Of a stretch of 36,919 nucleotides of DNA, positions 6,783 to 35,460 are shown piece after piece; the first letter of the stretch is position 1, and each line of letters starts with the position of its first letter. The notes beneath the pieces are model-generated. The model searched no databases. It was not told the DNA's origin and saw nothing but the letters and a program-made list of their open reading frames with translations. The position numbers and the translations under genes are program-made. The stretch comes from a virus, in IMG/VR virus record IMGVR_UViG_3300032240_000500, positions 1-36,919 of that record. One strand, given 5' to 3'.

Positions 6783-9700
6783 ATGGCAGAGTTTAAGATA
6801 AGCAGATTTAGGTATACCTGGAAAGGTGATTGGGTTACCGGCACCGACTACACCAAAGACGACGTTGTAAAATACGGCGGATCATCTTATGTATGTCTAA
6901 GAGGACATACTGCCTCTGCAGGATTTTATACAGATATAAATTACACAGTTCCTGGATCATCTCCAATCATAGCCTCACCGGCATGGACGTTTATGACCAA
7001 AGGTACTACTTGGAGAAGTGATTGGGTAACATCTAGACAATACAATGTAGGAGATATTGTTCAATACGGTGGAAATACCTATCTATGTTTAGCAGGCCAC
7101 ACTTCAGCAGTGACATTTGTTGCTGACACAGCCAAATGGGAAATCTATGTTGTTTCGGTTAGTTGGAAAGGACCGTATACAAACAATGTTCGTTATGCTG
7201 TAGGTGATATTGTTAGATACGGTGGGATTGTATATAAATGTATTACTGAGCATACATCAACATCTGACAGACTAGAACCACAAATAGCAAACTGGACGAT
7301 CTATTACAGCAATGTTGACGCATTTAATACATGGACTCAGTTAACTGCCTATAAGGTCAACGACCTGGTAAAATATGGCGGAAGTATATGGAAGTGTGTG
7401 ACTGCACACACTGGCGAATTGGCTTTTACCGCAGATAGATGGCGTGTTGAATTATACGGATATCAGTTTGGCAACGATTGGGCATCTTTGACCCTTTATC
7501 AAATTGGCGACGTTGTAAGATATGGCGGCTATTTGTACTACAGCCAAATCAATAATAACGATTTGAATCCTAGAGATTCAGAAGACAGTACAATTGCTTG
7601 GACAAGACTGGCAGAAGGATACAATCCTAGAGGAGAGTGGTTAAGCAGCAATCGTTACCTTACTGGAGATCTTGTAAGACGTGGTGGTAACTTGTATGTT
7701 GCCATTAATGAAAATCTCAACGACGGTAGCTCATTTGACTATCTAAGCACTGATGATTGGCAGTTGGTTGTACCTGGTTTCAATTGGAGAAATCGCTGGC
7801 TTGATGGAGTTTCTTATGCACTTAACGATCTTGTAATCTATCAAGGTTCAACCTACAAGTGTGTATATCCTCATATATCTACACTAGATGCATTTCCCGG
7901 AGACAACGGATCAGTATTCGGCCTATGGGAAATATTCCTTCAGTCTGGCGACTATACCGGGCTTATAAATCCCGGTGATCTACTAACTTGGAATTTGTCA
8001 AGACTTGGAGCAGGTGACGGCAGTACAATCAATGCTACATCTATTAGCATAGGTCAAGAATCTGAAGTTTTAAAAGTCAGCAATGAAGACCTATCAACTT
8101 TTGTCTATGAAAAATTTGGATCTCTAAGACAGGCTCGATATGTGTCTGCATCAAGTGGTGTGGACAGAGAAGACTACGGTTCTAGTCCGTTTACACCCTA
8201 TAGAACTATTCGTTATGCCTGCGAACAAGTCGAAGAGCTTTCTGGTAACTTTGATATTTCTGTTAATGCAGGATTATATGAGGAAATTTTACCTATTATT
8301 GTTCCAGCAGGCGTTTGTATCAAAGGTGTAGAAACAAGATCTACAACAGTTGTAGCTAACGATCCTATAGCCAGCCTAGCACTGGATTCTACATATACTA
8401 AATTTGTATTAGGTCATCTTTCAAGTTTAATTGATTATGTTATTACAGGAACACCAGCTACTGGATTTACCATAGGCACTACTGAATTACAAGATACATC
8501 TCTATCGGGCAGTGCAGGTGCAGTTACACAGGTTACACAACTAATAACTGATATAAAAAATTATATTACATTCTATATCGAAAGCGGTCCTACTGATCCA
8601 ACACTAGTTGGAACAAATGTAAGAAATACCGCGAATGAAGTAGCAGCACAGGCCTTAGAAAATAACAAAGAATTCCTAGCCAATGAAGCAGTAGCATTCA
8701 TGCGCGGCAATTATCCCAACTATGCGTTTGACAGTGAAAAATGCAAACGAGATGTTCGTGCCTATATTAATGCTTGGAAATATGATATACTATATACTGG
8801 CAATTACAAATCTTTATATGCAGCAAGATATTATAGAAATGCTGTATTAGGATCTGCACTTGAAGACATGTTCTATTTGCGTGATGCTACCGGTGTAAGA
8901 AACATGACGCTAAAAGGTCTAATAGGATATCTAAACCCTCCAGGAGTTTATGAATTCTATCAACGACCAACTGGAGGAGCATATACTTCTCTTGATCCAG
9001 GTTGGGGCCCAAATGATGATCGCACATGGATTCAAACTCGCAGTCCCTATATTCAAAACTGTGCTACATTTGGATTTGCTTCAGTTGGACAGAAGATTGA
9101 CGGCTCTCTACACAACGGTGGTAATAGATCATTTGTGTCTAATGACTTTACACAATTAATAGATGACGGTATTGGTGCTTGGGTAATAAATGGCGGACGA
9201 GCGGAACTTGTTTCTGTGTTTACCTACTACTCACAGGTGGGTTATCTAACAGAGAACGGTGGTATCATTCGTGCTACCAACGGTAACAACAGCTTTGGTA
9301 GAATTGGAGCCATGGCGCTAGGTACTAACGACACAGAAACACCTATTAGGGTCACTGTTAACACCAGAAATCATCAACCAATTATTACTTCTACATTCAC
9401 TGGATTACTAGGCAGTGATGCAGATAAGATCATGTTAGTAGAATATAGAAATGCAGGACAAAATTATACATCTGCAACATGGACTGTTAGTGGTGCTGGT
9501 GTTGGCGCCAGTATAATACAAGAAGAATACAGAGATAGGGCAGTATTTGAAGCACTAGAATATAATCCTATAGATTCTACTGGTGTTGGCGGAACCAATT
9601 TTACATTTGTTACACAAAATGCTTCAACAGGCACAACCACAAGCATTAAGTTGGCCGGCGCAGATACAGCCGCAGAATCAGAATATCTTGGCCTAAGAAT

Positions 9701-12293: not shown

Positions 12294-15200
12294 ATGGCAG
12301 AGTTTAAACTAGGTAGAATTAGATTTGTATGGAAAAGTGACTGGACAACCGGTACAACATATTATAAAGACGACGTAGTTCAATACGGCGGTAAAGTCTT
12401 TATATGTATTGCAGGGCATACCGCTTCTGCAGGGTTCTATACAGACCTAGATGCAGTTCCATCAAAATGGAATCAAATGAGCGACGGCTTTGCCTGGGAA
12501 AATGACTGGGCACCCGGAACTGCTTACAAAACCAATGACATGGTCAAATATGGTGGTAGACTTTATATTTGCCGTATTCCTCATACTAGTGCCGCAACAT
12601 TGGCCTTGGGACTAGAAGCCGATTTAAATCTAGCAGACAGCACATTATCCAAATGGGACAACGTGGCTGACGGTAGTGATTGGAAAGGTGCTTGGACTAT
12701 ATCTACTCGCTACAAGGTAAATGATCTTGTAAAATATGGCGGTATCAGCTATATCTGTAATACCTATCATACTTCTGCTGTGTCTCTAGCATTGGGTTTA
12801 GAAGCTGACTTAAACAAGTGGGATGTATTCAATCGTGGTATTGAATACAAAACAGCTTGGACTACAGTAACACGTTATAAAGTAAATGATGTTGTTAAAT
12901 TTGGCAGCACATTGTATATCTGTACGCTGTTCCATACATCATCTGCATCATTTGATCTTGATATAGCCTATTGGTCAGCTTTTGTTGAAGGTCTACAATT
13001 TGAAAATACATGGTCAAGTGCAACACAGTATCAACCGGGTGACATCGTTCGTTACGGCGGATATCAGTATGTGGCAAAAACTACCCATACAAATTCTACT
13101 CCTAGTACAGGTACAAGTAACTGGGATTTATTCAGCAAAGGTTTTAGTTTTACCGCAGAGTGGAGCTCTGCAACATCTTATAAAGTAGGTGAAGTAGTAA
13201 GCCTAGGCGGCAACACATATCTATGTACAGTCGATCATTCTAATCAATCTCCTCCTAATGCATCTTACTGGGACAAGTTAAGCAGTGGTGTGAACTGGAG
13301 AAACTACTGGGCAAATTCTACACCTTATTATGTAGGCGATGTGGTTCGTTACGGATCTAACGCTTATATCTGTATAACAAAACATACCAGCAATGACGAC
13401 GACAGTACAACATTTGCTGATTCTACAAGAAGTCCTTCTGGAGATACGGAAGGTGTATACTGGAATATCTTTAACATAGGTAGCGAATATTCTGTAATGA
13501 CAGATGCCGGTGACATGGTTTACTATAACGGTAACCAAGGACCTGCAAGATTGCCTATTGGTAAAGAAGGCATGGTACTCAAAGTATCCGCTAACAGCAA
13601 ACCAATGTGGGATTATCTAGGAGTTGTAGACTACACATTCTATGTTGCACCTCACGGTCAAGATCTACCTGCTCCAACATGGGGACTTACACAAGACAAG
13701 CCTTGGAAGACCATTAGATACGCCTGTATGCAGATCGAAGATGGTGCTCGAAATCCTAATGCACAGTACCTATTAGAAATGAATCGCGTATTCATTCAGA
13801 GAGAAGTTTCAGAATGGATCCAGTATCAAATAGCCAACAACCGATCACCATTTACATCTAGCTTTGTCTATGATGAATTCAAATGCGAACGTGACGTTGG
13901 ATTTGTCATTGATCGTTTGATTTGGGATATTGGCCATGGCGGAAACCTAAAAACATTGGCAGCGGCCCTATCATATATCAATCTGCTTAGTGGTTCTACT
14001 CTGTATGCTACAGCCTATGACGAAAACGGCACCGGCACTTATTCAAAACTTGCAGCACAATCAACACAAGATGTTGCCTCATATAATTATATGTTGACTG
14101 TGATTCAATCTGTATTGAATAATACTGCGGTTGCGGCAAGCTATCAAACAATCAACGGCGATAATTCTACAGCCATTCTTGGCCAGTATTTTAACACTGA
14201 CCTAGTAGCTGAAACTGGCGTATATACCACAATCACAAGCCTAGTAGGAATTATTACCAAAGCACTGACAGAACAAGTTGCAACCAATCTCCCAAGCAGA
14301 TATGTCCCAAACAACATATTGAATGTTAAATCAGGCGCTTGGACAGAAGTATTACCAATTCCAGTACCAGCTGAAACTTCAATTGTAGGTGATGAAACTC
14401 GAGCAGTTGAAGTCAGTGCAGACACTGGTTCAGTTGACATTACTGATTCTTATGCCACCTACACAACCTTTGGCCGTATAGGCACAGTTATGGGACAAAT
14501 TGTTGCAGGAACCAGTGTCACTAGAACCACAGGCAATACAGCAACTCAAAGTCTATACTGGCCTTATGCTAGTTCTGCAGAAACAACAAAGATCAGCAGT
14601 CTTGTTGATGTAATGAAATATCAAGCAGATCACCGTCTAGGTCAAATGGATGCAGCTACAATGACTGATCCAACTGGCTACAATACCAGTTATCTAATCG
14701 GTTACGGCTATGCTAGAAAACTCATAAAAGAAAATAGAAAATTCTTACAAGAAGAAGTTATTGCCTATCTAGCAGCTAACTATCCTAACAGCAAATACGG
14801 AAAAACAAAAACACGTAGAGACACTGGCTATATTATAGATGCTATGATTTATGCATTAACCTACGGTGGCAATTCTCTAAGCGTTCAAGCAGGTCTTGCA
14901 TACTTTGATGCTGAGGGAAGCACTAACCTAATTCCTGCAAGTATCAAAGCACTAACTCTAGCATCTATTACATTCTTAAAAGCAAGAATGCAATCTGTGG
15001 CAACTAATTCTGCTGTAACACCTTTACAAACAACAATACCGCAGTTCTTTGACACAGCAGGTAGTGCCGCAGCGTCTACCCTAATTGGCACAAACGTTGA
15101 TATCATTTATAACTTGATCAACGGTGCTTCAACAACTGCTGCTCCAAATATCACTGTTACCACAATTACAGGCACAACTACATTAGCGACAGCATCTGCA

Positions 15201-18200
15201 CACGGATTAACTGTAGGTGATACATTTGTTCCAAGAAGTACTGCCAACGGTTTGACCACAGGAACAAAATACTACGTGGTATCTGTGCCATTGGCAACTA
15301 CATTTACTCTGGCATTAAGTTATAATGGTGCGGCAATTACTACTCTAACCAACGGAACTGGATTGACCATAGTAGGTGATGTTGTAGATACACCAGCTGC
15401 TACCAACGGAGTGACCACAACTACCGCATTAATTACGGCTTATACAACACTGACTGCACAGATTCCAACAATTGGCACAGATGCGGTAACTACTGTTAAT
15501 ACAGCATATCCAACACTGAGTTACAGCACAACTAAAACAGCACGAGATGTTGCCATCGTTTTAGAAGCAGTGGGCTTTGACTTTATGTTTAACAGCAATT
15601 ACAGAACTGTTAAAGCAGCTCAAGCCTATCTAAGAGCTAACTCTGTAGAATTGTACACAACAACAAATCTAAAAGCAGCTACAAGATTGGCGTTGACCTA
15701 TGCTAAGACACAGGCAAAAGCCAATGTTGGCGGCGATGCTACAGCACAAGCACGTATTGAAACACTAATGACCTTGGTTGATTCTGTTATTTTCGGTGCA
15801 GCCAACGAAGGCGATATGTGTCAGTCTGTATATGATGACATCTACTATGCTAATTTGCAACTAGAACGCAACCGCGCATTCATTGCCGCAGAAGCTAGTG
15901 CCTACATAGCCAACACATTCAAATCCGCTGCCACTGCTACCACAGTGACCACTGACGTTATCACAGTTGCTGATACCAGCTGGATGCGTAGAAACCTAGC
16001 AATTGAATTTACAGGAACTATTCCATCGGGTGCTGGTATTAGCACTGGAGTAACCTACTATGTTCAGAACGTGGTTAGTTCAACAACCTTCACAGTGGCA
16101 ACTACTAGATTTGCTTCAACTGCAAACAGAGTAACACTGGCTACCAAGTCAGGTTCTTGGACAGTCAAGATGGTCTACAATTCAGCACTTTGCCTAAGAG
16201 ATGTTGGCTACTACATTGATGCAGTTAAGTGGGATCTGGTATATAGCTCTAATTACAAGAGTCGCTATGTTGCAAGATACTATGCCAATGCAGTACTAGG
16301 TAGTCAAGAAGAAGACTTCTTCTATCTACGTAATGGCACAGGTGTAAAGAACATGAGTTTGCGAGGTCTCAACGGACAGCTAACTCCAGAAAATGCCTAC
16401 GGTACAAGTCGTACCACAGCAGGCGCCTATGCAAGCCTGGATCCAGGTTGGGGACCAGCAGACTTCCGCACATGGATTACCAGCCGTTCGCCTTATATTC
16501 AAAACAATGCAACGTTTGGTAATGCCGCTATTGGCCAAAAGATTGACGGCTCATTGCATAACGGCGGCAACAAGTCGATGGTTAGCAATGACTTTACCCA
16601 ATTAATCAGTGACGGTATTGGCGCTTGGATAACCAACAATGGACGTGCAGAACTTGTTTCTGTGTTCACATATTATTCACACATTGGTTACCTAGCAGAA
16701 GCAGGCGGCCGCATTCGTGGTACCAACGGTAACAACAGCTACGGCGATTTTGGATCTGTAGCAGAAGGTTATGACGTTACTGAAACTGCAAAAACAGCCA
16801 TTGTTGATAATAAATTCCAATACAAGGCAGTTGTTGGCAGTATAACCACAGACAGCAGTGCTATTTTTGCATTTGAATTTGATCATGCAGGTAATGAATA
16901 CACAGAAGCAACATATTTGGTTATTGGTCCAGGAAACTTTGCCGATGTTGAACAAGATGAATTCCGTGACGATGCGGTATTTCAAATTCGACTGATAGAC
17001 AACGTTGATGATAGTACCGCAGCCCCAGAGGCAGACGGAAATCAAGGCGGTTCAGGATATCTAACCAAGAACGGTACTGCACAAAACGGTACGCTAACAT
17101 CTATTACATTATCAGCAGTTGACGATCAATTAAGCAGTGCTTATATTGGCATGAAAATTGTTATCACAGCTGGTAACGGTCTAGGGCAGTATGCATTGAT
17201 CAATGCTTATAACTCAGGTACCAAAATAGCAGATGTTATTACAGAAGCAACAGGAGCAGCAGGATGGGATCACTTTGTTGCTGGAACACCTATCCAAGCT
17301 CCTGATAGCTCAAGTTCTTACAGTATTGAACCTGCTGTTTCATTTACAGCACCAACATATTCGTCTACAGCATCAACATTGCCAACTAGCGGAACTTGGT
17401 CTACGGTTGAATACGGTGATACATCTGCAAGTTACTCAAGTCTAACAGGTACATATTCTGGATCTGGAGTTAATGCTAGATTCACAGTGGTCAGAAACGG
17501 TTCAAAATATGCTTCTATCACTATTGACACAGCTGGTACAGGCTATGTAAGATTAGAAACAATTACCATATTAGGTACTAGCCTAGGTGGAACAACACCA
17601 GCCAATGACCTTGTAATAACAATTACCAGTGTAAGCACATTGGGTGCTATACAGGCATTTGATACCAGCGGTTACGGTCTAGGTGGACGATTTGTAGCAA
17701 TAAGATCCGGTAGCGTGATTGGTGCTACATCCGAAGACGGTATTACATGGACAACAAGAACCAGCCTAATGCCTAGCGGCGCAAGTTGGTCAGCAGGAGC
17801 TTGGGGTTACTTCAACGACGGCTCTTCCTTACCAGGCGAATCAAGTTCAAGATTTGTTGCAGTCGCAGGAGGATCAGCAAATACCACAGGTGCATGGTCA
17901 GCAGATGGTATTACTTGGACAGCTACATCAATGAATACCAGTGCTACATGGGTTGATGTTTGTTTTGGCGAAGGCCGCTTTGTTGCCATAGCCAGTGATA
18001 GTACTACTGTAAGAATTTCCGGTGACGGTGAAAACTGGGACAGCACAGGAACGCTAGCACGTACAGGATATACCTGTATTGCCTATGGTCTAGGACTATA
18101 TGTTGCAGCACGTAGTGGTAGTACAATCGGTGCATGGTCAACTGATGGTGTTACCTGGATTGAAATTGCAATGCCAAGTTCTAGTAGCTGGAATAAGATT

Positions 18201-19562
18201 GCTTATGGTAACGGAAGATTTGTTGCTCTTTCAACAAGTTCTGGAACAGTCACAGCTTACAGTATTACAGGTAAAGTATGGTATGCTGGCACATTGCCAG
18301 TAAGCACATCATGGACAAATATCTGCTACGGTCAAGGTGTATTCCTAGCGGTAACAAATTCAACTACAGCAGCTACATCTCAAGATGGCGTTAACTGGAC
18401 TTCAAGAACCATGAGCACAGCAGCCAGCGGATTCTCAGCAGCAGTTTTTGGTAATCCACAAAGATCTGGTAAGTTTGTAGCAGTTGGAGGCGGTACTGGA
18501 ACAGTGGCCAGTTACACCTATGCTGGAGCAAAAACTCGAGCTCGTGCATTTGTTTCAAGTGAGAAAATCACAGCAATTAGAATTCTAGAACCAGGTTCTG
18601 GATATGCTAGTGCTCCAACTATCACTATCACAGATCCTAACAACATTTTTGAAGCACCTACAACGGTTAGAATCGGTGATGGCGTATTGGGAATGCCAAG
18701 TCTCAAGAACAGAGGAATAGGATATCAAACATGTAGTGCAGAAATAGACAAAGGTGATGGCTATGCTGACTTCTTCCAAGACGGTGCTTATGTTGCTGTA
18801 CGTAGAATCAGTTCAAGACCAGCTGCAGGTTCTAACTTGGTATTTGCTGGTAAGGACATTACCTATAAAGTTGTTAGTGTTGTCAGTTTCCGAGGAGACT
18901 ATGACGGTTCCTATACCGCGTTCCTACAGATAAGTCCAACCATAAAGGTATATGACAATCTAGCAGATGGTACAGCAGTAACAGCTAGAATTCGTTACAG
19001 CCAAGTTCGACTAACAGGACATGACTTCTTGGATATTGGTACTGGAAGTTTCACAGAAACCAACTATCCATACACCCCATCTCAAGCTCCTATACAGGCC
19101 AATGAGACTGTAGAAGGCAACAGTGGTCGTGTGTTCTACACAAGTACAGACCAAGACGGTAACTTCCGTGTTGGAGCCTTGTTTACCATTGAACAGTCAA
19201 CTGGTGTTGCAACATTGAACGCTGACGCATTTAACTTGTCGGGTCTACAAGAAATTAGTTTGGGTAATTTGACATTGGGAGGTGCTAGTGCAAGGGTTCA
19301 AGAATTCTCAACAGATCCTTTCTTTACACAGAACTCAGACTCTGTTATTCCTACACAGCGAGCAATTAAAGCCTATATTGCCAGCCAAATTGGTGGCGGT
19401 GGTGCAAGTTTGATTGTTAACAGTGTTACAGCAGGGGATATTTTAATTGGTACAAATACAGTTACCAACGTTACTGGTGGTTCTATTATCATGGGATCAG
19501 TGGTTAATTTCACAGGCGGAGTTACAGGTTACCCGCTTGCAATCAGTTACTTCTTAAACTAA
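12294..19562 (+). CDS. Giant modular virion protein, second and longer paralogue
   Basis: A 2422-residue protein with the same architecture as its upstream neighbour. Seven WxxxxxYxxxDxVxYGGxxYxC repeats occupy residues about 6-395. The 600 extra residues lie mostly between the repeats and the core, where the helical RDxGxxIDA unit occurs four times (near 530, 839, 1081 and 1299) instead of once, interleaved with beta segments such as SAHGLTVGDTFVP. The conserved core (about 1349-1492) has LDPGWGPADFRTWITSRSPY and IDGSLHNGGNKSMVSNDFT. An Asp-box propeller follows at about 1795-2080 (SEDGITW, SADGITW, SGDGENW, STDGVTW, SITGKVW, SQDGVNW), then VFYTSTDQDGNFRVGALF near the end. GGAG precedes the ATG. 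It is probably a long fibre or whisker-like host-recognition protein. Confidence 0.85.
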   Translation: MAEFKLGRIRFVWKSDWTTGTTYYKDDVVQYGGKVFICIAGHTASAGFYTDLDAVPSKWNQMSDGFAWENDWAPGTAYKTNDMVKYGGRLYICRIPHTSAATLALGLEADLNLADSTLSKWDNVADGSDWKGAWTISTRYKVNDLVKYGGISYICNTYHTSAVSLALGLEADLNKWDVFNRGIEYKTAWTTVTRYKVNDVVKFGSTLYICTLFHTSSASFDLDIAYWSAFVEGLQFENTWSSATQYQPGDIVRYGGYQYVAKTTHTNSTPSTGTSNWDLFSKGFSFTAEWSSATSYKVGEVVSLGGNTYLCTVDHSNQSPPNASYWDKLSSGVNWRNYWANSTPYYVGDVVRYGSNAYICITKHTSNDDDSTTFADSTRSPSGDTEGVYWNIFNIGSEYSVMTDAGDMVYYNGNQGPARLPIGKEGMVLKVSANSKPMWDYLGVVDYTFYVAPHGQDLPAPTWGLTQDKPWKTIRYACMQIEDGARNPNAQYLLEMNRVFIQREVSEWIQYQIANNRSPFTSSFVYDEFKCERDVGFVIDRLIWDIGHGGNLKTLAAALSYINLLSGSTLYATAYDENGTGTYSKLAAQSTQDVASYNYMLTVIQSVLNNTAVAASYQTINGDNSTAILGQYFNTDLVAETGVYTTITSLVGIITKALTEQVATNLPSRYVPNNILNVKSGAWTEVLPIPVPAETSIVGDETRAVEVSADTGSVDITDSYATYTTFGRIGTVMGQIVAGTSVTRTTGNTATQSLYWPYASSAETTKISSLVDVMKYQADHRLGQMDAATMTDPTGYNTSYLIGYGYARKLIKENRKFLQEEVIAYLAANYPNSKYGKTKTRRDTGYIIDAMIYALTYGGNSLSVQAGLAYFDAEGSTNLIPASIKALTLASITFLKARMQSVATNSAVTPLQTTIPQFFDTAGSAAASTLIGTNVDIIYNLINGASTTAAPNITVTTITGTTTLATASAHGLTVGDTFVPRSTANGLTTGTKYYVVSVPLATTFTLALSYNGAAITTLTNGTGLTIVGDVVDTPAATNGVTTTTALITAYTTLTAQIPTIGTDAVTTVNTAYPTLSYSTTKTARDVAIVLEAVGFDFMFNSNYRTVKAAQAYLRANSVELYTTTNLKAATRLALTYAKTQAKANVGGDATAQARIETLMTLVDSVIFGAANEGDMCQSVYDDIYYANLQLERNRAFIAAEASAYIANTFKSAATATTVTTDVITVADTSWMRRNLAIEFTGTIPSGAGISTGVTYYVQNVVSSTTFTVATTRFASTANRVTLATKSGSWTVKMVYNSALCLRDVGYYIDAVKWDLVYSSNYKSRYVARYYANAVLGSQEEDFFYLRNGTGVKNMSLRGLNGQLTPENAYGTSRTTAGAYASLDPGWGPADFRTWITSRSPYIQNNATFGNAAIGQKIDGSLHNGGNKSMVSNDFTQLISDGIGAWITNNGRAELVSVFTYYSHIGYLAEAGGRIRGTNGNNSYGDFGSVAEGYDVTETAKTAIVDNKFQYKAVVGSITTDSSAIFAFEFDHAGNEYTEATYLVIGPGNFADVEQDEFRDDAVFQIRLIDNVDDSTAAPEADGNQGGSGYLTKNGTAQNGTLTSITLSAVDDQLSSAYIGMKIVITAGNGLGQYALINAYNSGTKIADVITEATGAAGWDHFVAGTPIQAPDSSSSYSIEPAVSFTAPTYSSTASTLPTSGTWSTVEYGDTSASYSSLTGTYSGSGVNARFTVVRNGSKYASITIDTAGTGYVRLETITILGTSLGGTTPANDLVITITSVSTLGAIQAFDTSGYGLGGRFVAIRSGSVIGATSEDGITWTTRTSLMPSGASWSAGAWGYFNDGSSLPGESSSRFVAVAGGSANTTGAWSADGITWTATSMNTSATWVDVCFGEGRFVAIASDSTTVRISGDGENWDSTGTLARTGYTCIAYGLGLYVAARSGSTIGAWSTDGVTWIEIAMPSSSSWNKIAYGNGRFVALSTSSGTVTAYSITGKVWYAGTLPVSTSWTNICYGQGVFLAVTNSTTAATSQDGVNWTSRTMSTAASGFSAAVFGNPQRSGKFVAVGGGTGTVASYTYAGAKTRARAFVSSEKITAIRILEPGSGYASAPTITITDPNNIFEAPTTVRIGDGVLGMPSLKNRGIGYQTCSAEIDKGDGYADFFQDGAYVAVRRISSRPAAGSNLVFAGKDITYKVVSVVSFRGDYDGSYTAFLQISPTIKVYDNLADGTAVTARIRYSQVRLTGHDFLDIGTGSFTETNYPYTPSQAPIQANETVEGNSGRVFYTSTDQDGNFRVGALFTIEQSTGVATLNADAFNLSGLQEISLGNLTLGGASARVQEFSTDPFFTQNSDSVIPTQRAIKAYIASQIGGGGASLIVNSVTAGDILIGTNTVTNVTGGSIIMGSVVNFTGGVTGYPLAISYFLN

Positions 19563-19945: not shown

Positions 19946-20890
19946 ATGGGACGTAATGTACGCAACGGATTGAGTGGACAGTTTGGAGCTGGTAAGATAA
20001 CTGTCGGCTCTAGCACTATCTCAACAACACAAACCAATACTGATCTTACCATTGACCCTAACGGGACAGGTATTGTTAAAGTTACCAGTAACTTTTTGTT
20101 AAACGGTGACGGATCAGCTGCCGGCGAAATGCGACTAGGCGATGCTGACTCTTCTAACTGGGTTGGTTTTAAAAGTCCTGCTACAGTTACGGTTAACAAA
20201 GTCTGGGTGTTACCAGCAGCAGACGGTACCAACGGTCAGTACTTAAAAACTGATGCCAGCGGTAACCTAGGTTGGGGTACAGTCGCAATTACCCTAGGTG
20301 ATGAAACTGCCAATGCTGGTACATATTATCCGTTAATACAGAGTGCAGTTAGCGGAACAGCTACTACACTTTATGGATCTAGTACAAAATTAACTTATCA
20401 GCCAAGCACTGGTACTATGACTGTTGGTATAATAACAGGTAGTGCTAGTTCAGGTGCAAACCTTGTGCTAAGAAGTACATCTAATGCTACCAAAGGTCAG
20501 GTCTACATTGATGAAACCACAGCAAGTTCAAGTACCACAACTGGTGCTCTGCGTGTAGGTGGCGGTGTAGGCATTGCTGGAACACTATATGTGGCCAGCT
20601 TGGTAGAAACTTCAAGTATTGTGTACAAAGAAAATTTAAATCCTATCGTTGATGCACTTGACAAGATTATCAAACTCACAGGTTACACCTACGATAGAAC
20701 AGACATTGAAAAGAAAAACGAATCTGGTTTAATTGCTGAATATGTAGAAGAAATATTACCTAATCTAGTCAGCAAAGATGAAAACGGTGTAGTTAACGGT
20801 GTACAGTATACTAAACTAACTGCCTATCTAGTTGAAGCAATTAAATCACTAAATGACCAAGTCAAAGAATTGAAAGCAAAATTAGGATAA
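19946..20890 (+). CDS. Fibre protein with C-terminal S74 self-cleaving chaperone domain
   Basis: A 314-residue protein. The first 220 residues are a beta-rich fibre shaft with repeats such as LTIDPNGTGIVKVTSN and TTTGALRVGGGVGIAGTLYV. Residues about 221-314 match the intramolecular chaperone of phage fibres and endosialidases (peptidase S74): SSIVYKENLNPIVDAL, GLIAEYVEEILPNLV (261-275), VQYTKL and a terminal amphipathic helix LVEAIKSLNDQVKELKAKL. In that family the domain drives trimerisation and then cuts itself off. The family start is roughly S-D-x-R-x-K; here S223-S224-x-x-x-K228 keeps Ser and Lys but has Ser in the Asp position, so cleavage is likely but not certain. AAGGAAA precedes the ATG. 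Confidence 0.88.
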   Translation: MGRNVRNGLSGQFGAGKITVGSSTISTTQTNTDLTIDPNGTGIVKVTSNFLLNGDGSAAGEMRLGDADSSNWVGFKSPATVTVNKVWVLPAADGTNGQYLKTDASGNLGWGTVAITLGDETANAGTYYPLIQSAVSGTATTLYGSSTKLTYQPSTGTMTVGIITGSASSGANLVLRSTSNATKGQVYIDETTASSSTTTGALRVGGGVGIAGTLYVASLVETSSIVYKENLNPIVDALDKIIKLTGYTYDRTDIEKKNESGLIAEYVEEILPNLVSKDENGVVNGVQYTKLTAYLVEAIKSLNDQVKELKAKLG

Positions 20891-21706: not shown

Positions 21707-21717
21707 GAGGTTAAGAA

Positions 21718-24679: not shown

Positions 24680-24686
24680 AGATACA

Positions 24687-25538
24687 ATGACCGATCGCAG
24701 AATTCAGTACCACTCTGAAAGATATAACAGTGAAATTAACACAGACGTTTCTATGCTTTCAGAGCAAGAACAGAGCCTAGTTAAACTTGCACTAAACAAA
24801 GAATGGACCAACCCAAAGTTTAAATTGAAATGGTTTGTTGGACAAGCACAAATTACCCCGTTCGCTAAATTCCGCCAATGGCTACTGGAAATCAAAACCA
24901 AAGAAGAATCCATCGAAAACATGGAATATGAAATTGCCAAACACGAAGTTGAGTGTGAAAGATTTCAAAGACTACGTGATGAGGCTAGCGATGATTTAGA
25001 TAGAAAACTAGCAGAAATTGAGCTATGGAATAGACAACGTTTAAGCTATACCAGCAAACGTCGAATACAAGATTGGTATCTAGAAAGACAACACTTAATT
25101 GATCTTTGCAACGAATTTATGGCTTCCGAAGAAGCTAAACTGCCAGATGGTTCAGGAAGAACCTACATGGATGTTATGAACACCGCAGAAGAAGATGTCT
25201 ATGAAGCGCAGTATTGGACTAACAGATTGGCCAAGCAAGCGGCCTGCGATATGATTTTCTATGGTAGAATCAACAGCGGAAACATGGATGCCATCTTGAT
25301 GATGAATCCAGAACAGCAAGCAGAGACCATGGCATTGACTGTGAATTTTGCTACCAAGTTGCAAAGCTACCAACAACAACTACAGGTTAGTGCAGATGAT
25401 GCAGTGAGATCGTCACTGGGTATGGATATGAATTCGTTAACTACCCCTAAAGAAGAACCTGCTACACAAACATTATCAGTTGCTGATAATCAAAAGGAGA
25501 TTTTTGATGTATATAATTTACGAAACGATAGCCAGTAA
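24687..25538 (+). CDS. Helical, coiled-coil-rich protein of unknown function
   Basis: A 283-residue, highly charged and mostly helical protein. Residues about 65-150 are probable coiled coil (KEESIENMEYEIAKHEVE and RKLAEIELWNRQRLSY). The C-terminal 40 residues are polar and likely flexible. The N-terminus (RRIQYHSERYNSEI, then VSMLSEQEQSLVKLALNKEW) looks like a conserved phage protein but I cannot name a function. It has its own perfect late promoter and strong AAGGAG site, which marks it for separate regulation. Genes directly after fibre genes in T4-like phages often encode fibre assembly factors, so a chaperone role is possible, but this is inference from position. Confidence 0.75.
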   Translation: MTDRRIQYHSERYNSEINTDVSMLSEQEQSLVKLALNKEWTNPKFKLKWFVGQAQITPFAKFRQWLLEIKTKEESIENMEYEIAKHEVECERFQRLRDEASDDLDRKLAEIELWNRQRLSYTSKRRIQDWYLERQHLIDLCNEFMASEEAKLPDGSGRTYMDVMNTAEEDVYEAQYWTNRLAKQAACDMIFYGRINSGNMDAILMMNPEQQAETMALTVNFATKLQSYQQQLQVSADDAVRSSLGMDMNSLTTPKEEPATQTLSVADNQKEIFDVYNLRNDSQ

Positions 25539-26040: not shown

Positions 26041-26060
26041 CATCACTTTAAAAGTTTAGA

Positions 26061-26094: not shown

Positions 26095-26103
26095 CTTACG
26101 ACT

Positions 26104-27780
26104 ATGAGAAAAATATTCAGCGTTCCGTTAAACCCAAAATTAAATCAAGCACAATTTAAAGAATTCTGTGAATTTCTATTTCAATATAAAGATTATATTA
26201 GAGATGTCTACTTCACAAGTCGAATAAAGCCCTTTGTACAAGATGCAATGGGTGATGTTTTTCTTTTAGAAGAATATCACCTTAGTATTATAGAATCTGC
26301 CCTGTACATACAGAATGCACTAGGCATACCTGTTAGTGCTACATTTAACAATATTGAAGTTCCGGCAACACAGCAAAACTTAGATATCTTTATTTCTAAT
26401 TTCAAACCCCTATATGATGCCGGTGTACGAAATGCAACAATTCCTCATACCCATTGGATGGCCACTGGCCAGATCAAACGGGCATTTCCTGAATTGTATG
26501 TAAAAAATACAATCCTAAGAGAAGTACACTCGGCACAAGAAGTAGTAAATCTTGCAGGATATGGATTTGACTATGTTAACCTTGATCGTGATCTAATGCG
26601 AGATAAGGATGCATTACTGGCAATTAAAAAAGCTAAAGCATACATTAAAGAAACCATGGGCAAGGATATTGCCATCAGCCTATTGGCTAACGAAGGCTGT
26701 GTTGGCGGATGCAGCATGATGGTAGAACATTTTCAATTTAACAACAACAGATCAGTTAACAATCCGCAATACTTTAATGATCCAATAAGCCGAATTAGCT
26801 GTAAAAAATGGGAAGTAGATGATCCTGCAACATCACTAAAAACAGCTAACTTTCCACCGTGGCGAGCTGACTGGGATGAGTTTATTGATGAACTGGGCAT
26901 TGACAGTATCAAGATGCACGGCCGCGAGGCAATAAGTCGACTGTACGAAACCATGCAGATTATTAAAAATTATGCAGAAGGCAAAGAAATTTTATTTTCT
27001 GGGTTTGAACAATATCTAGAAGATACGAATCTTGTAGAAAAACCTATTAATATATGGCGTGAAAAAATTCGCAATTGCAAATTTGAATGTTGGGATTGCC
27101 AATACTGCGATAAAATCTACAACAAAAAATCAAACATGCATTACTCCGAGCTAGTTAAACATACTGCCCAAGCAATTGCAGATTCTGGTGTACCCACAGT
27201 TAGGTTAGGTGTTCCTGGACTAACCAGCCCTCGGGTAGAAACATTGTTAAATTCCTTGGCTCAGGGAATCAATACTTACTTAGAAGTAGGAGCAGCAATG
27301 GGCGCAACATTCTGCGCTACAATTAAAAACAATCCCATCCATGCTATTGCTGTTGACAACTGGAAACAAAATATTCAGCCTGTTAGATCTGCAGAACTAG
27401 GTACACTACCAGAAAATTCTGTTCAACAGTTTATTGAAAATGTTAAAAAACACAAGGGTCAAGCGACTGTAGATATTCTAAACGGAGATTTATTCTCAGC
27501 AGATGTTTCTAGATTTTCTACTAATATAGAAATGTTTTTCTATGACGGTCCTCACGACTTTGAAAGTACAAAACGTGCCGTGCTACACTACTATCCTGTG
27601 CTAGCAGATGAATGTATTATCATCTTCGATGATGCAAATTGGAAACCAGTTGTGGAAGGCGCACAGGCAGGCTTACAACAAGTAAATGCAACTATTGTAT
27701 TTGAAAAGATGATGCTTAATTCTTTAGAAAATCCTAACGAGTGGTGGAACGGTCTTTATATTGTGGTGATAAGAAAGTGA
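26104..27780 (+). CDS. U32-like iron-sulphur protein fused to a SAM-dependent methyltransferase
   Basis: A 558-residue two-domain protein. Residues 1 to about 345 resemble the U32 (YhbU/UbiU/RlhA) family: FSVPLNP at the start, VNLDRDLMRDKDALLAIKKA (158-177), ISLLANEGCVGGC (191-203) and IKMHGRE (269-275). Possible [4Fe-4S] ligands are C199, C203, C233 and members of C325/C329/C332/C335. U32 relatives hydroxylate RNA bases or ubiquinone precursors without O2, despite the old peptidase name. Residues about 385-558 look like a class I methyltransferase: YLEVGAAMGATF (392-403), IAVDNW, FFYDGPHDFESTKRAV (478-493) and IIIFDDANW. It lacks an obvious Shine-Dalgarno, starts a six-gene overlapping cassette, and probably modifies one substrate twice or feeds the downstream enzymes. 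Confidence 0.78.
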   Translation: MRKIFSVPLNPKLNQAQFKEFCEFLFQYKDYIRDVYFTSRIKPFVQDAMGDVFLLEEYHLSIIESALYIQNALGIPVSATFNNIEVPATQQNLDIFISNFKPLYDAGVRNATIPHTHWMATGQIKRAFPELYVKNTILREVHSAQEVVNLAGYGFDYVNLDRDLMRDKDALLAIKKAKAYIKETMGKDIAISLLANEGCVGGCSMMVEHFQFNNNRSVNNPQYFNDPISRISCKKWEVDDPATSLKTANFPPWRADWDEFIDELGIDSIKMHGREAISRLYETMQIIKNYAEGKEILFSGFEQYLEDTNLVEKPINIWREKIRNCKFECWDCQYCDKIYNKKSNMHYSELVKHTAQAIADSGVPTVRLGVPGLTSPRVETLLNSLAQGINTYLEVGAAMGATFCATIKNNPIHAIAVDNWKQNIQPVRSAELGTLPENSVQQFIENVKKHKGQATVDILNGDLFSADVSRFSTNIEMFFYDGPHDFESTKRAVLHYYPVLADECIIIFDDANWKPVVEGAQAGLQQVNATIVFEKMMLNSLENPNEWWNGLYIVVIRK

Positions 27781-28379
27781 TAGATAAAGTTTTCAGCGTT
27801 CCAGTATATCAAGATCTTGTTTCAAATAAATCAGCAATAGATCAAGAAATAGCCTTGGCGTTAACAAATTCAGAATTTGCCAATGTATGGCAACCTGATA
27901 ATGATACTGCAAATACCACATTCATACCCGGTAAACAGGCTAACATTCTAGCCAAACATCAATTAAAGGCCACTGTAATTGAAATTGTTAGACATGCCAA
28001 CGCATATCTAGAAGGCACCGGTCAGCCTTACAAGAAAAATTCCGTTAAAATTGATCAATCCTGGCTAAACACCTTTGAGGATAATCAATTAATTGGATTG
28101 CACGAACACGGATATCAGCCAAATACAATCAGCGGTGTTTATTATCATAAGGCTCCACAGAATTGCGGAAGGTTAATTCTTAAAAATCACAATCCATTTG
28201 TAGTGAGTTTTCCGCATCAGTCGCAGGAATTTTTTAACCTAGTAAATATTGAACCAGAAGAAGGACTAGTAGTATTCTTCCCAAGCTGGTTGATGCACAA
28301 AGTAGAACCAAACAAAACCAAAGAGACTCGTGTTTCTTTGTCTTTTAATATTTCTTTTGATTATACATTTTATGAATAG
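27777..28379 (+). CDS. 2-oxoglutarate/Fe(II)-dependent oxygenase
   Basis: A 200-residue protein of the short 2OG-Fe(II) oxygenase family common in T4-like phages. The GTG at 27777 is chosen because it overlaps the previous stop (GTGA) and gives the usual start IDKVFSVPVYQ. An ATG at 27741 lies inside the previous gene. Key features are LIGLHEHGYQPNTISGVYYH with H109 and H111, GRLILKN, and EEGLVVFFPSWLMHKVEPN with H174, then R185 in RVSLSFN. H174 and R185 fit the distal iron ligand and the 2-oxoglutarate-binding arginine; the proximal ligands are H109/H111, and no clear HxD carboxylate is visible. Such enzymes hydroxylate or desaturate small molecules or side chains; the substrate is unknown. 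Confidence 0.88.
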   Translation: MIDKVFSVPVYQDLVSNKSAIDQEIALALTNSEFANVWQPDNDTANTTFIPGKQANILAKHQLKATVIEIVRHANAYLEGTGQPYKKNSVKIDQSWLNTFEDNQLIGLHEHGYQPNTISGVYYHKAPQNCGRLILKNHNPFVVSFPHQSQEFFNLVNIEPEEGLVVFFPSWLMHKVEPNKTKETRVSLSFNISFDYTFYE

Positions 28380-29895
28380 AATACAAAAAATCACTATATT
28401 TGGCGGCGGAACTAGCGGATGGTTAACAGCAGCTTACCTAGCCAATAATGTAAAAATACCTGTTGAGATTACTCTAATTGAAGATACAAGTCTTGGGCCA
28501 ATAGGAGTAGGTGAAGGTACACAACCATTAACAGCACAATTCTTATATCAATGCGGCCTACATCCGCAACAATGGATGAAGCCGAGTAATGCAGCTTTTA
28601 AATTTGGAGTTGAATTAGTAGGTTGGAATGACGAACCTTATTTTGTTGACAACGATGCTATTCAAAGTTCTTTCGTTGCAGAAGGTGTCTATGCAAGCGA
28701 TTATTTTATTAGACGTCCTCATAAAGAATTTACAGATTTTCATCCAGCATACCAACTAGCCAAAGCTAATCTAAGTCCAAAAATGGTAGAACATCTAGAT
28801 GTTAATTTTGGATCAAATCTAGAAGCATTTGGTGCAGTCCATTTTTCAGCATATGAAATTTTAGACGCTCTTAAAAATCTCATAGGAGATAAAATCAAAC
28901 ATGTTGATACTAGAATTAAGAGTGTTGAAAAGGACATGTATGGAATCACAAAACTAATTGATGAATCAGGTACAGCTTACACCTCAGATCTGTTTATAGA
29001 TTGTAGTGGATTTAGTTCTATTCTTTTAGAAAAAACTCTAGGAGTTCCATTCACATCCTACGATAAATGGCTACCAAATGACCGTGCAGTAGTAATGCCT
29101 AAACAGTATACTGACCCAGAAAAAGAATGTTTTCCATATACTCGAGCAACTGCAATGACAGCCGGTTGGAGATTTACAATTCCTATCTACACTCGTATAG
29201 GCAACGGCTATGTTTACAGCAGTAAATTTATCTCTGATGAAGATGCAGAAAAAGAGCTACGTGAAGCAATAGGCGAATATGATGCCCCTGCAAAGTTTTT
29301 AAAAATGAAATGTGGGTACCATAAAGAGATTGCTGTAAAGAATGTAGTAGCAGTAGGACTTAGCGCAGGCTTTGTTGAGCCATTAGAAGCCACAGGTATT
29401 ACATTTACTACAGCCGTAGTTAAATCTATTGCTGACTTGTTAAATTTGAATAAAAATATTTGGAACAATCAGACTAGAGATTTGTTAAATGGCGGTTTCT
29501 ACGAAATGTCTATGGAAATTTTAGCCTTTGTTTGGGCACACTATCATTTTTCAACCAAGGCCGATACTCCATTCTGGCAAGAAATAAGACAACAACAAAT
29601 CAAAGATCTGCCTGAAGACGTACAAACTATTCTTAGTTTTTATTATCCGCAACCTGGACGATTCTTGTTTTTAAGGCCAAGTTCAATGTTCAACAATGCT
29701 CAATGGTTCAGTATGTTGCATGCCGGTGGCGCATATAAAGATATTGAAATTCCTCATAGACCCTATGAAACAGAATATATAAAATATTTTATTGATGTTC
29801 AAAATTATAGAGTCAAACAGGCAAAACTTAATTTTAAAAATCACTATAGATACCTAGACGATTGGTATAACAATAAACTGTTTGGAGAAAAATAA
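28372..29895 (+). CDS. Flavin-dependent halogenase (tryptophan halogenase family)
   Basis: A 507-residue protein of the tryptophan-halogenase family, which uses FADH2, O2 and halide to halogenate electron-rich carbons. ATG at 28372 is chosen over 28330 because the FAD-binding start should be near residue 10. Motifs: GGGTSGW (11-17), the family loop GVGEGTQPLT (45-54), NAAFKFGVEL with K77 aligning with the catalytic lysine of PrnA, W266-R-F-T-I-P271 in place of WxWxIP (second Trp is Phe), YVYSSKF, and GLSAGFVEPLEATGI (329-343) with E339 at the conserved glutamate. The start overlaps the oxygenase stop by eight bases. No flavin reductase is present, so FADH2 must come from the host. A viral halogenase (VirX1 of cyanophage Syn10) is known; substrate and preferred halide here are unknown. 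Confidence 0.9.
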   Translation: MNRIQKITIFGGGTSGWLTAAYLANNVKIPVEITLIEDTSLGPIGVGEGTQPLTAQFLYQCGLHPQQWMKPSNAAFKFGVELVGWNDEPYFVDNDAIQSSFVAEGVYASDYFIRRPHKEFTDFHPAYQLAKANLSPKMVEHLDVNFGSNLEAFGAVHFSAYEILDALKNLIGDKIKHVDTRIKSVEKDMYGITKLIDESGTAYTSDLFIDCSGFSSILLEKTLGVPFTSYDKWLPNDRAVVMPKQYTDPEKECFPYTRATAMTAGWRFTIPIYTRIGNGYVYSSKFISDEDAEKELREAIGEYDAPAKFLKMKCGYHKEIAVKNVVAVGLSAGFVEPLEATGITFTTAVVKSIADLLNLNKNIWNNQTRDLLNGGFYEMSMEILAFVWAHYHFSTKADTPFWQEIRQQQIKDLPEDVQTILSFYYPQPGRFLFLRPSSMFNNAQWFSMLHAGGAYKDIEIPHRPYETEYIKYFIDVQNYRVKQAKLNFKNHYRYLDDWYNNKLFGEK

Positions 29896-30308
29896 TGTTA
29901 GGTGAATTAAATGTAGGCGAGTATACTATATGGACTCAAGAAATCCGTCAAGTTAAAGATCCATATACTGCACGTAAACTTCAGAAAGATAGAAAAAAAT
30001 TAAAAATTTGGATGAATGCTCTATTGGCAAATAGAGATTTAATTGTATTTCACATACATGAAGGTGTAGAAACCATGAGTGTTTTAACAAAAAAACATGG
30101 AGGAGATGACTTAGCCGACGCTCCTATTAGTGCAGAGCAGATTGGCTACGATACATACCTTGTAGTTAATTACATAATGGCCAACGAGTGGCCAACCCTA
30201 AGACCTATAGCGATCCATGTAGACGACATAACTAAATTTATGTCTCGCTCGGGCGGCACAACTGAAATTAGTAATAAAATAAATTGGTTTGGTCATGGAC
30301 ACAATTGA
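29895..30308 (+). CDS. Unknown protein coupled to the halogenase
   Basis: A 137-residue protein I do not recognise. Its ATG shares a base with the halogenase stop (TAATG), so it is translationally coupled. The N-terminal third is a charged helix (DPYTARKLQKDRKKLKIWMN), followed by a strand and His-containing segment (LIVFHIHEGVETMSVLTKKH). The C-terminal part has PTLRPIAIHVDDITKFMSRS. It has no signal peptide, membrane helix or clear catalytic motif, although several His residues could bind metal. Tight coupling to an enzyme suggests an accessory or partner role in the same pathway; this is inference from arrangement. Confidence 0.72.
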   Translation: MLGELNVGEYTIWTQEIRQVKDPYTARKLQKDRKKLKIWMNALLANRDLIVFHIHEGVETMSVLTKKHGGDDLADAPISAEQIGYDTYLVVNYIMANEWPTLRPIAIHVDDITKFMSRSGGTTEISNKINWFGHGHN

Positions 30309-31026
30309 ATTCTTCACATCGGCACCCGGCCTATCGGAAATGTTTCCTATCATCTCTGCAAGCGAATGCAGAGCAGACTGGATGACAGCCGCTAAAAATG
30401 ACTATGTTCAAAATAAAGAACGTTTTTCAAAATCTAGAAGCACACATTTATTTCAATGTCCTGGAATTTTTGATCTAAACAATCACGGATTTATTGTTCC
30501 TCTATGGCACGATCTAATTATTAAAACAGACAGCAAGGAACGATTTACATGGACTATACCTTCCGGTGCATTAAATTCCTATAGAGGAAAAGATGTAGTA
30601 GGAACACACAAACCAGGACTTGACAAATTTATACCTAAACGTCCATGGAGTCTAAATCAAGTGGTAAAATTAGATACCCCTTGGAACATTGTTGCTCCAA
30701 AAGGAGTAAAATTTTTAATTATACCCTTGGCTTACCCCGATGATTTTACCTTTGAAAGTTGCATAGGTATATTGGATCCAGCTATCAGCACAGAAGTAAA
30801 CATACAATTATATTGGAATGTAATGCAAGGAGAAACACTGCTCAAAGCCGGTACGCCTCTTTGCCAACTAATACCGTTAACAGAAAAAAAGTATGAGCTG
30901 ATAGTTAGAGAAATGACAGCTAGTGATAAGTTCTGGCTTGAAAAACGTAACTTGTTTATGAGCATGTTCTTTCGAGGAAATAGAAATATCATAAAAGAAA
31001 TGTACCATAAGCATTTTAAAAAATGA
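30295..31026 (+). CDS. Conserved marine-phage protein of unknown function
   Basis: A 243-residue protein starting MDTIEFFTSAPGLSEMFPI. The second of two close ATGs (30295) is chosen because it gives the family-like start; 30289 is also possible. The pattern HLFQCPGIFDLNNHGFIVPL, then APKGVKFLIIPLAYP and GTPLCQLIPL, is one I recognise as a widespread hypothetical family in marine phages, often near oxygenases and other tailoring enzymes, though without an established activity. The body looks beta-rich with a short helical C-terminus. It overlaps the previous gene by 14 bases. The conserved CPGIFD and GTPLCQLIP lines suggest a defined active or binding site rather than a structural role; unproven. 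Confidence 0.78.
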   Translation: MDTIEFFTSAPGLSEMFPIISASECRADWMTAAKNDYVQNKERFSKSRSTHLFQCPGIFDLNNHGFIVPLWHDLIIKTDSKERFTWTIPSGALNSYRGKDVVGTHKPGLDKFIPKRPWSLNQVVKLDTPWNIVAPKGVKFLIIPLAYPDDFTFESCIGILDPAISTEVNIQLYWNVMQGETLLKAGTPLCQLIPLTEKKYELIVREMTASDKFWLEKRNLFMSMFFRGNRNIIKEMYHKHFKK

Positions 31027-31352
31027 ATTTTAAACCAACTCCGTTTTTAGGATTTTTTACACCGCAGGGCAGACTGTATTCTACATACGCCGAATTAAAA
31101 GAAATATTCGGCCGACCCTATTTTGGACCCGGTAGAGAAGCCAATCCGGCAATAGATAGGTCATTAAATAGAGTCAGCTGTCAATGGCGTATAAAATTCG
31201 AAGACAATACCATTGCTATAATACACGACGATCGTCAAAAAGACACAAACCTAGGTTTTTATCAATGGTTTATTTCTGGAGACTCAGGAAGAGCTGCAAT
31301 TTTAGTTAAAGAGATAGTAGAAAGTCATCGCAAAAATAAGGTAAATACTTGA
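31023..31352 (+). CDS. Small conserved phage protein, last gene of the enzyme cassette
   Basis: A 109-residue protein whose ATG overlaps the previous stop (ATGA). The line TYAELKEIFGRPYFGPGREA followed by VSCQWRIKFEDNTIAIIHDD and FYQWFISGDSGRAAILVKEI resembles a small hypothetical family of T4-like marine phages whose members often modify or accompany other phage proteins, but no function is known to me. The fold appears alpha/beta with a Trp-rich C-terminal half. There is no membrane or export signal. As the last overlapping gene it belongs to the same transcript as the halogenase; the following structural gene has its own start signals. Confidence 0.75.
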   Translation: MNFKPTPFLGFFTPQGRLYSTYAELKEIFGRPYFGPGREANPAIDRSLNRVSCQWRIKFEDNTIAIIHDDRQKDTNLGFYQWFISGDSGRAAILVKEIVESHRKNKVNT

Positions 31353-31367
31353 TAATTTATTATTGAG
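31340..31367 (+). promoter_or_regulatory. Possible late promoter with adjoining hairpin before structural gene
   Basis: GGTAAATA (31340-31347) matches the late consensus at 6 of 8 positions. It is followed by a hairpin CTTGATAA/TTATTGAG with loop TTTA (31348-31367), which includes two G-U pairs. The right arm holds the only ribosome-site-like bases (GAG) before the ATG at 31373. A start near 31353 would remove most of the left arm. The match is weak. Confidence 0.3.
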
Positions 31368-31372
31368 CTACC

Positions 31373-32848
31373 ATGACTGTAAAAACCAATACACTTTTTA
31401 ACCTTGTAAGGTTCGCTCCTAGCGAGGGAGCCTACTTAGATAGAAAACTTGGATCTCGAGGAGAACTTTTCTTTGATAGAGATGCCGAGACCCTAAGACT
31501 TTACAATGGTAAAGACACTGGTGGTATTATTCTAGCAAGAAATGATCTAAACGGTATCAATTCTGCAGCCTTAAAACAGGCAGTAATTAACACAAAAATA
31601 GCCACAGTTACCTATACAACAACTATCACAGGTCCTCAGGGAAACGATTCAGGTAACAAATATAATTTTAACGGTATTTACAAACCTGTATTAAATTTTG
31701 TAACCGGCTATACCTACGTATTTGATCAAAGCAATGACACTAATGTCTATTACCCTAATGCCAACGGTACTACACAAAACAGACATCCTTTAAATTTTTC
31801 CGCTGACAACCTAAGCGGAGTTCGAGGTGGCGGCACAGCCTATACTACTAATGTAATATACAAACTAGACGGCGTAGTTGTAACTTATGCAGTTTACAAT
31901 AGCGTGGCATTTGATAATGCTAATACACGCACGGTACAGATTACCGTAACTAATGCAACGCCAGCAGTATTGTACTATTGGTGTTACAATCACCTAAATA
32001 TGGGCAATGAAATTGCCGTTGCTGATCCCGGATCTGGAACAGGTCAAACTTCAGTATCAGTAGGTGCAACGGTGCCCGATGAACCCGAATCTGGAAATTT
32101 ATGGCTAGACACTAACACTGGATTTTTATATGTTTACATTGATGATGGCACATCGACTCAATGGATGCAACCATCCTATCCACAGCCAAACATAGGAAAT
32201 ATTTCTTTTGATGTTACAACCATCGACACTACAGATTCGTCATCTATAACATTTCAACCTGCCGTTGTATTCAATAGTGATGTCACTGTCGAAAATGATC
32301 TAAGAATTAGAAGTAATCTTGTGGCAACTCAAGCCTATGTAGATCTAGCAGTAGCCGGAGTTGTTGTGGGCGCATTAAATATCAACCCTGCAACTATTGG
32401 ATTAGGAAACGTTACCAACGAATCCAAAGCCACAATGTTTACGGCTCCAACATTCACTGGAAACATAACACTCAACGGTGCTACAGTTCTACAACAGACA
32501 TCTGAAGTTTTAAACACCAAGACTGGAGCAACGGGAACTGTTGTTCATGACTTTTCAACTGGTGCAGTGTGGTATCACAGTTCAATGTCTGCTGATTTTA
32601 CAGCAAATTTTACCAACGTCCCAACCGCTGACAACAAGGCAATTTCAATAGTTTTAATTCTAAACCAAGGTGCTTCCGGCGCCTATGCTACTGCGGTGCA
32701 GATTGATGGCGCTGCCCAAACAATAAAATGGTTGGCTGGAGTTTCTCCTACTGTGTCAGTTAACAAGGTTGACATATTGAGTTTTACATTGATTAGAACA
32801 GGTTCTGCATGGACAGTATTAGGCAGCATGAGTTCATACGGAGCATAA
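31373..32848 (+). CDS. Structural protein with cupredoxin-like domain
   Basis: A 491-residue modular protein. Residues 10-55 carry a fibre N-terminal motif (APSEGAYLDRKLGSRGELFF, then LRLYNGKD). Residues about 80-215 resemble a cupredoxin: a TYVFDQSNDTN strand, NRHPLNFSAD with H138, and YYWCYNHLNMGNEI with C204, H207 and M210, the ligand set and CxxHxxM spacing of a type 1 copper site. A GNLWLDTNTGFLYVYIDDG segment follows, then LVATQAYVDLAVAG, and a beta-rich C-terminal domain (about 385-491) with LNTKTGATGTVVHDFSTGA. This suggests a fibre or baseplate-associated protein; copper binding is a prediction. It directly follows the enzyme cassette. Confidence 0.78.
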   Translation: MTVKTNTLFNLVRFAPSEGAYLDRKLGSRGELFFDRDAETLRLYNGKDTGGIILARNDLNGINSAALKQAVINTKIATVTYTTTITGPQGNDSGNKYNFNGIYKPVLNFVTGYTYVFDQSNDTNVYYPNANGTTQNRHPLNFSADNLSGVRGGGTAYTTNVIYKLDGVVVTYAVYNSVAFDNANTRTVQITVTNATPAVLYYWCYNHLNMGNEIAVADPGSGTGQTSVSVGATVPDEPESGNLWLDTNTGFLYVYIDDGTSTQWMQPSYPQPNIGNISFDVTTIDTTDSSSITFQPAVVFNSDVTVENDLRIRSNLVATQAYVDLAVAGVVVGALNINPATIGLGNVTNESKATMFTAPTFTGNITLNGATVLQQTSEVLNTKTGATGTVVHDFSTGAVWYHSSMSADFTANFTNVPTADNKAISIVLILNQGASGAYATAVQIDGAAQTIKWLAGVSPTVSVNKVDILSFTLIRTGSAWTVLGSMSSYGA

Positions 32849-32852
32849 TTAC

Positions 32853-33911: not shown

Positions 33912-33930
33912 CAAATAAACAGGATATACT

Positions 33931-35450: not shown

Positions 35451-35460
35451 CCAATACTTA

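Follow-up and report, generated by a model that had tools for sequence, protein, structure and literature searches.

Marine phages commonly carry halogenase genes, and no report of the natural substrate of these enzymes was found in the literature that we examined. The closest described system is VirX1 of the cyanophage Syn10 (CPUG_00131, PDB 6qgm), a variant-A flavin-dependent halogenase (FDH) with the canonical motifs WVWNIP, ESTG, and GVGESTL, whose gene is immediately followed by a gene of the DUF6065-like family phrog_7084. A phrog_7084 gene is also found immediately downstream of the FDH genes of S-CREM1, S-RIM44, P-TIM40, Sf-FP1, and Sf-FR1, and in 56 of the 80 loci collected with VirX1 as the query the FDH gene is directly followed by one. 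Another FDH is encoded by the Pelagibacter phage HTVC008M, a marine phage of the T4 superfamily, where the gene is located in the neck/terminase region and is directly preceded by an overlapping gene of the 2OG type. It has been proposed that the WxWxIP motif of FDHs shields the substrate site and blocks hydroxylation, although the role of the individual residues was stated to be unclear (PMC10696468), and the motif is missing from several FDHs, for example Bmp5 (PMC8407142).

The DNA analyzed here, referred to as the window, is a stretch of 36,919 bases from an IMG/VR virus record. Its gene order runs from a fragment of a T4-type major head protein gene (phrog_138) through two giant tail fibre genes and additional fibre genes to an FDH gene, and a tail sheath gene follows the FDH region on the opposite strand (Table 1). 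The head protein was found to be 73.7% identical to that of Sinorhizobium phage Phosso, 69% to that of Vibrio phage 2.275.O, and 67% to those of the Pseudomonas PA5oct group. The window phage thus appears to be a jumbo-type member of the T4 superfamily with a capsid closest to those of jumbo phages of other hosts, and therefore, unlike the phage carrying VirX1, it is probably not a cyanophage. The two giant fibres (6783-19562) carry about 14 CBM_5_12-type repeats, each showing a conserved W/Y pattern.

Table 1. Genes of the fibre region and of the FDH cassette in the window
Feature	Position	Strand	Evidence
Giant tail fibre 1, 1822 aa, CBM_5_12 repeats	6783..12251	+	phrog_9851 1.3e-151; PF02839 1.4e-41
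Giant tail fibre 2, 2422 aa, CBM_5_12 repeats	12294..19562	+	phrog_9851 3.3e-189; PF02839 4.8e-43
Distal tail-fibre-like protein with Peptidase_S74 intramolecular chaperone	19946..20890	+	PF13884 3.3e-8
phrog_1409 tail-region protein, upstream of the cassette in loci with and without FDH	24687..25538	+	phrog_1409; synteny
558-aa phrog_1458 protein, uncharacterised N-terminal domain and C-terminal methyltransferase	26104..27780	+	phrog_1458 8.5e-166; PF13578 7.1e-11
2OG-Fe(II) oxygenase, directly upstream of FDH; start provisional	27756..28379	+	PF13759 2.8e-21; TIGR02466 4.2e-21; phrog_81
Variant-A FDH, 507 aa	28372..29895	+	PF04820; phrog_2928; PDB fold Z 33-38
137-aa protein, just downstream of FDH in most clade loci	29895..30308	+	no Pfam/PHROG match; synteny
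phrog_7084 protein, remote DUF6065 relative	30292..31026	+	phrog_7084 6.5e-41
Tail fibre/baseplate-like protein, last gene of the cassette	31373..32848	+	phrog_708 2.3e-16

The FDH reading frame is open throughout its 507 codons and apparently intact. Residues 6-453 of the product match PF04820 (Trp_halogenase) with an E value of 1.6e-93 and a score of 314.5 bits (cut-off 21), and therefore a chance match is excluded. When the PDB sequences were searched, the best matches were variant-A FDHs, with E values from 3e-63 downward and 1e-57 for VirX1. A fold model obtained with AlphaFold2 from the sequences of 19 clade members (mean pLDDT 82.3, pTM 0.85, confidence being weak at residues 45-50 and around 331-340) matched the variant-A FDHs of the PDB with Z scores of 33.6-38.2 and rmsd of 2.4-3.1 over 455-487 residues, the Z score for VirX1 being 35.2; the next entries were CndH (Z 22.7) and UbiI (Z 22.5). 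The flavin motif GGGTSGW (residues 11-17), K77, E339 (in FVEPLEATG), and WRFTIP (266-271) are all present, and they align residue by residue with the flavin motif, K75, E354, and WMWTIP of PyrH. In the 19 clade members, which are 54-100% identical, the flavin motif (GGGTSG, 11-16), K77, E339, W266, I270, and P271 are invariant, and this conservation points to selection acting on an enzyme. These results bear out the initial annotation, which had described a phage FDH with GGGTSGW, K77, and E339 in FVEPLEATG intact and WRFTIP as its signature motif, and the protein groups with variant-A halogenases, not with FAD monooxygenases. We therefore regard the gene as a genuine variant-A FDH for which the sequence predicts an intact catalytic set. 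Two definitions of the tunnel motif, Fx.Px.Sx.G and FX[DE]PX[EFL], have been given (PMC8407142); FVEPLEATG fits the second, and compared with the first it has Ala for Ser at position 340, this Ala being invariant in the clade. In addition, the loop following the flavin motif reads GVGEGTQ, not GVGEAT or GVGEST, in 34 of the 38 FDHs of the window group.

That the altered WxWxIP motif is unusual, as had been supposed at the outset, was not upheld by the comparison with other FDHs. WRFTIP retains three of the four fixed positions of the motif. All of the 257 FDH ORFs that were gathered have the first W, and at the position of the second there is W in 217, F in 37, and Y in 3. The loci of the window clade have F in 21 cases and W in 17 cases; WRWTIP (15) and WRFTIP (11) are the forms seen most often. 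An F at this position also occurs in 13 of the 95 FDH ORFs in the loci collected with HTVC008M as the query and in 2 of 10 bacterial FDHs. At least five changes are required in this column on a tree of 80 rows, and F-form and W-form clade members have the same neighbour genes. Because F and W are mixed within the clade, have been exchanged repeatedly, and occur beside the same neighbours, the change from W to F appears to be a conservative, recurrent polymorphism that is ordinary among close relatives. GVGEGTQ, and EATG instead of the ESTG seen in VirX1, seem to be more distinctive of the window clade. The clade thus represents a natural W/F series in which the rest of the active site is constant, and it allows a direct test of the disputed role of the motif.

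In a quick maximum likelihood tree of FDHs (LG+C20, SH-aLRT support), the window FDH was placed in a viral clade (16 rows, SH-aLRT 100) with a long stem (1.45). The VirX1-type clade (28 rows, SH-aLRT 100) excludes this clade, and the FDHs of VirX1 and the window are only about 32% identical. The HTVC008M-type FDHs, most of which have TS rather than TG after the catalytic Glu, form another separate clade. Viral FDHs thus comprise at least three lineages, and the window FDH represents a new one within an already known type of phage enzyme; the link with VirX1 drawn earlier holds for fold and family only, since the tree assigns the two enzymes to different clades. A cellular origin of the window clade was sought by one genome scan with two short patterns, which gave only distant FDHs (24-30%), and the placement of a Pseudoalteromonas plasmid FDH as the sister of the clade (support 89, long branch) was not trusted. 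Short, divergent FDH-like paralogues of about 400 amino acids were seen in two contigs (L030:4511-5707 and L006:9962-11146), where they form long branches together with two cyanobacterial proteins, and FFEPIS stands in place of FxEPLE at the catalytic Glu in two window-group ORFs, which are probably these paralogues. Furthermore, two adjacent FDH ORFs on a scaffold named 'Human fecal phage' (L051, MT837902.1) group with a Sphingomonas plasmid FDH, and this scaffold is possibly a bacterial contig.

The genes around the window FDH form a compact cassette. The FDH gene shares its first 8 bases with the end of the 2OG gene and its last base with the following start codon, suggesting co-translation; in HTVC008M, too, the 2OG-type gene overlaps the FDH gene. 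In the 34 loci of the clade, a phrog_1458 gene was found within 3 kb of the FDH in 28, a phrog_7084 gene in 27, and a 2OG gene in 27 (adjacent in 24). Most clade loci have the order phrog_1458, FDH, and phrog_7084, with 2OG genes before or after the FDH. This is unlike the HTVC008M loci, only 5 of 80 of which have phrog_7084 within the same distance. When 16 long phage records, including 12 complete phages, were examined, a 2OG gene was located at most 3 kb from 19 of 26 FDH genes, compared with 6.4 expected, and 5000 random shifts gave a maximum of 17 and never reached 19; since these neighbourhood counts come from related phages, the 26 FDH genes represent fewer than 26 independent cases. 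In annotated cyanophages, FDH and 2OG genes lie between the tail-fibre and neck genes. The phrog_1458 protein has conserved cysteines in its N-terminal part (C199, C203, C233, C325, C329, C332, and C335, from the alignment). A resemblance of this half to U32 peptidases, considered because of the cysteine pattern, was dropped when no Pfam or PDB sequence match was obtained. With Foldseek, the C-terminal half matched methyltransferases, and the alignments over the whole length were poor ones to pyruvate kinase. Homologues of phrog_1458 occur in 123 cyanophage records, and those listed are mostly annotated as hypothetical. For phrog_7084, PF19541 (DUF6065) gave no match to the window protein itself (30292-31026), and among its homologues it matched one from a Haloarcula virus above the cut-off (3.2e-6) and one from Rhizobium at 0.013; none of the papers examined names DUF6065. 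A counterpart of the window protein from the same family is encoded at L036:9574-10362.

When phrog_7084 was used as bait in place of the FDH, 50 new loci were obtained. Within 3 kb, 47 of them contain a 2OG gene, 45 a phrog_1458 gene, and only 18 an FDH gene. An obligate pairing of FDH with phrog_7084 was therefore abandoned: phrog_7084 accompanies the 2OG gene, and the FDH is an optional insert in the cassette, a feature that tells more than its altered motif. The loci without FDH have the order phrog_1409 (the counterpart of window 24687), phrog_1458, 2OG, and phrog_7084, with other genes after the first, and tblastn searches of 36 such loci found no FDH remnant. Two relatives were identified by their capsid protein (G055, 92%; G057, 89%). 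They are collinear with the window over the region that begins at the head gene and includes both giant fibres, but diverge from it between these fibres and the tail sheath, where they contain two, or at least six, 2OG genes and no FDH. From this variability in otherwise collinear relatives we conclude that a variable slot with many 2OG oxygenases extends from the fibre tip to the tail sheath, and that the FDH is an occasional occupant of this slot. A comparison of L390 and L398 with window 19946-35461 likewise showed a variable slot in otherwise collinear phages, with at least six 2OG genes in L398. A link between the FDH and the CBM_5_12 fibres was also considered: in the first sample, almost all FDH-bearing cassette records have 11-18 CBM_5_12 repeats and those without FDH few or none. 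This link was rejected, since no FDH was found in the capsid-sampled records G055, G057, G058, G060, G061, G063, and G064, several of which are fragments, although these records carry 9-14 repeats. The giant fibres with CBM_5_12 repeats are widespread across the phage group, and their presence does not follow that of the halogenase. In five contigs (L072, L129, L092, L065, and L103), a homologue of the window giant fibre is followed by a VirX1-type FDH, so two FDH lineages are found in the same neighbourhood. What can be reused from this comparison is the cassette itself, its forms with and without FDH, and the partner that it has in common with VirX1.

Unlike bacterial FDH relatives, which can adjoin a flavin reductase gene, the window FDH has no PF01613 gene. 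In a search that covered the PF01613 (Flavin_Reduct) family, no member was detected in 44 records, namely the window, the records of 31 relatives, and 12 complete FDH-bearing phage genomes, whereas 13 of 14 control genomes contained one. FADH2 is therefore probably supplied by the host. The earlier remark that no flavin reductase is encoded nearby holds for this family, but it is uninformative for the window because the relatives and the complete FDH phages lack one too.

We consider that the gene encodes a functional FDH operating within a tail-adjacent cassette, with a probability of roughly 0.6. In the scheme that we infer, in which the activity, the host reductase, the timing, the substrate, and the halide are all presumptive, a host flavin reductase would provide FADH2 to the two-component enzyme, which, as in other members of the family, would form a C4a-hydroperoxide and oxidise the halide to HOX. 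The HOX would travel through the tunnel to K77, and an electron-rich aromatic ring would be halogenated with the assistance of E339. Most likely the ring would be that of an aromatic residue in a tail or receptor-binding protein of the phage, modified presumably late in infection, or alternatively that of a product built jointly with the 2OG enzymes of the cassette. A tail protein is favoured by the location of the gene next to variable tail genes, although location alone cannot establish a substrate, and the specific proposal of a tail protein is nevertheless somewhat unlikely. A broader proposal is that phages possess a modular tail-modification system made of 2OG oxygenases, the DUF6065-like protein, the methyltransferase fusion, and optionally an FDH from one of at least two separate lineages, with which they would oxidise and halogenate receptor-binding proteins of their own; the natural substrate of VirX1 would in that case be a phage tail protein. 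This proposal is speculative and rather unlikely. The DUF6065-like neighbour common to the window clade and VirX1, together with the cassettes with and without FDH, narrows the search for the substrate.

Other functions for the enzyme can be weighed against the same evidence. Since F268 replaces the second W of a motif proposed to prevent hydroxylation (PMC10696468), the change might have converted the FDH to a flavin monooxygenase (hydroxylase) or another oxidase. This is highly improbable, because W and F alternate among close, similar relatives whose neighbour genes are the same, because K77 and E339 occur throughout the clade, and because the fold matches to variant-A FDHs lie far above that to UbiI. 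It is also improbable that the protein is a PrnA/RebH-like halogenase of free tryptophan serving host or phage tryptophan chemistry, although its top PDB sequence matches are tryptophan halogenases. PrnA, RebH/LooH, and PyrH have the fold, GxGxxG, and the catalytic Lys and Glu in common with the window FDH but differ from it in the C-terminal substrate module: the best PDB alignments end near residue 412, short of this module, and nothing in the window FDH corresponds to the C-terminal sequence of LooH (YYGNFEEEFRNFW). In the tree, moreover, the window FDH lies apart from the LooH/RebH proxy clade, in which the tryptophan 7-halogenases are represented by a plasmid sequence (L215) that matches LooH over its full length, with RebH and PrnA as the next matches. 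A C-terminal module unlike that of free-tryptophan halogenases fits the indole halogenases VirX1, BrvH, and MibH, for which the tryptophan-binding residues have been listed as not applicable (PMC8269204); the PDB entry of MibH is titled lanthipeptide tryptophan 5-halogenase.

A more serious alternative to a role in the tail, possible if still doubtful, is that the FDH, the 2OG oxygenases, and the methyltransferase make a halogenated metabolite derived from an amino acid or a sugar, or decorate a polysaccharide of the host surface, for superinfection exclusion or antibiosis. A halogenated metabolite or capsule decoration has been proposed for the cluster of S-SSM6a (PMC7824862), and the S-SSM7 halogenase is accompanied by carbamoyltransferase and sugar genes. 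However, the searches of the window cassette revealed no member of a sugar, carbamoyltransferase, or peptide-synthetase family, and the cassette moreover lies between tail-fibre and tail-sheath genes. The FDH genes of P-SSM2, located near nrdAB, and of S-B64, near recombination genes, are in still other settings, and therefore no single context explains all phage FDHs. In S-CREM1, about nine oxygenase genes annotated as 2OG-type or JmjC are arranged in a row soon after the halogenase (L046:10625-16115), with a tail gene annotated as collagen-like upstream of this run.
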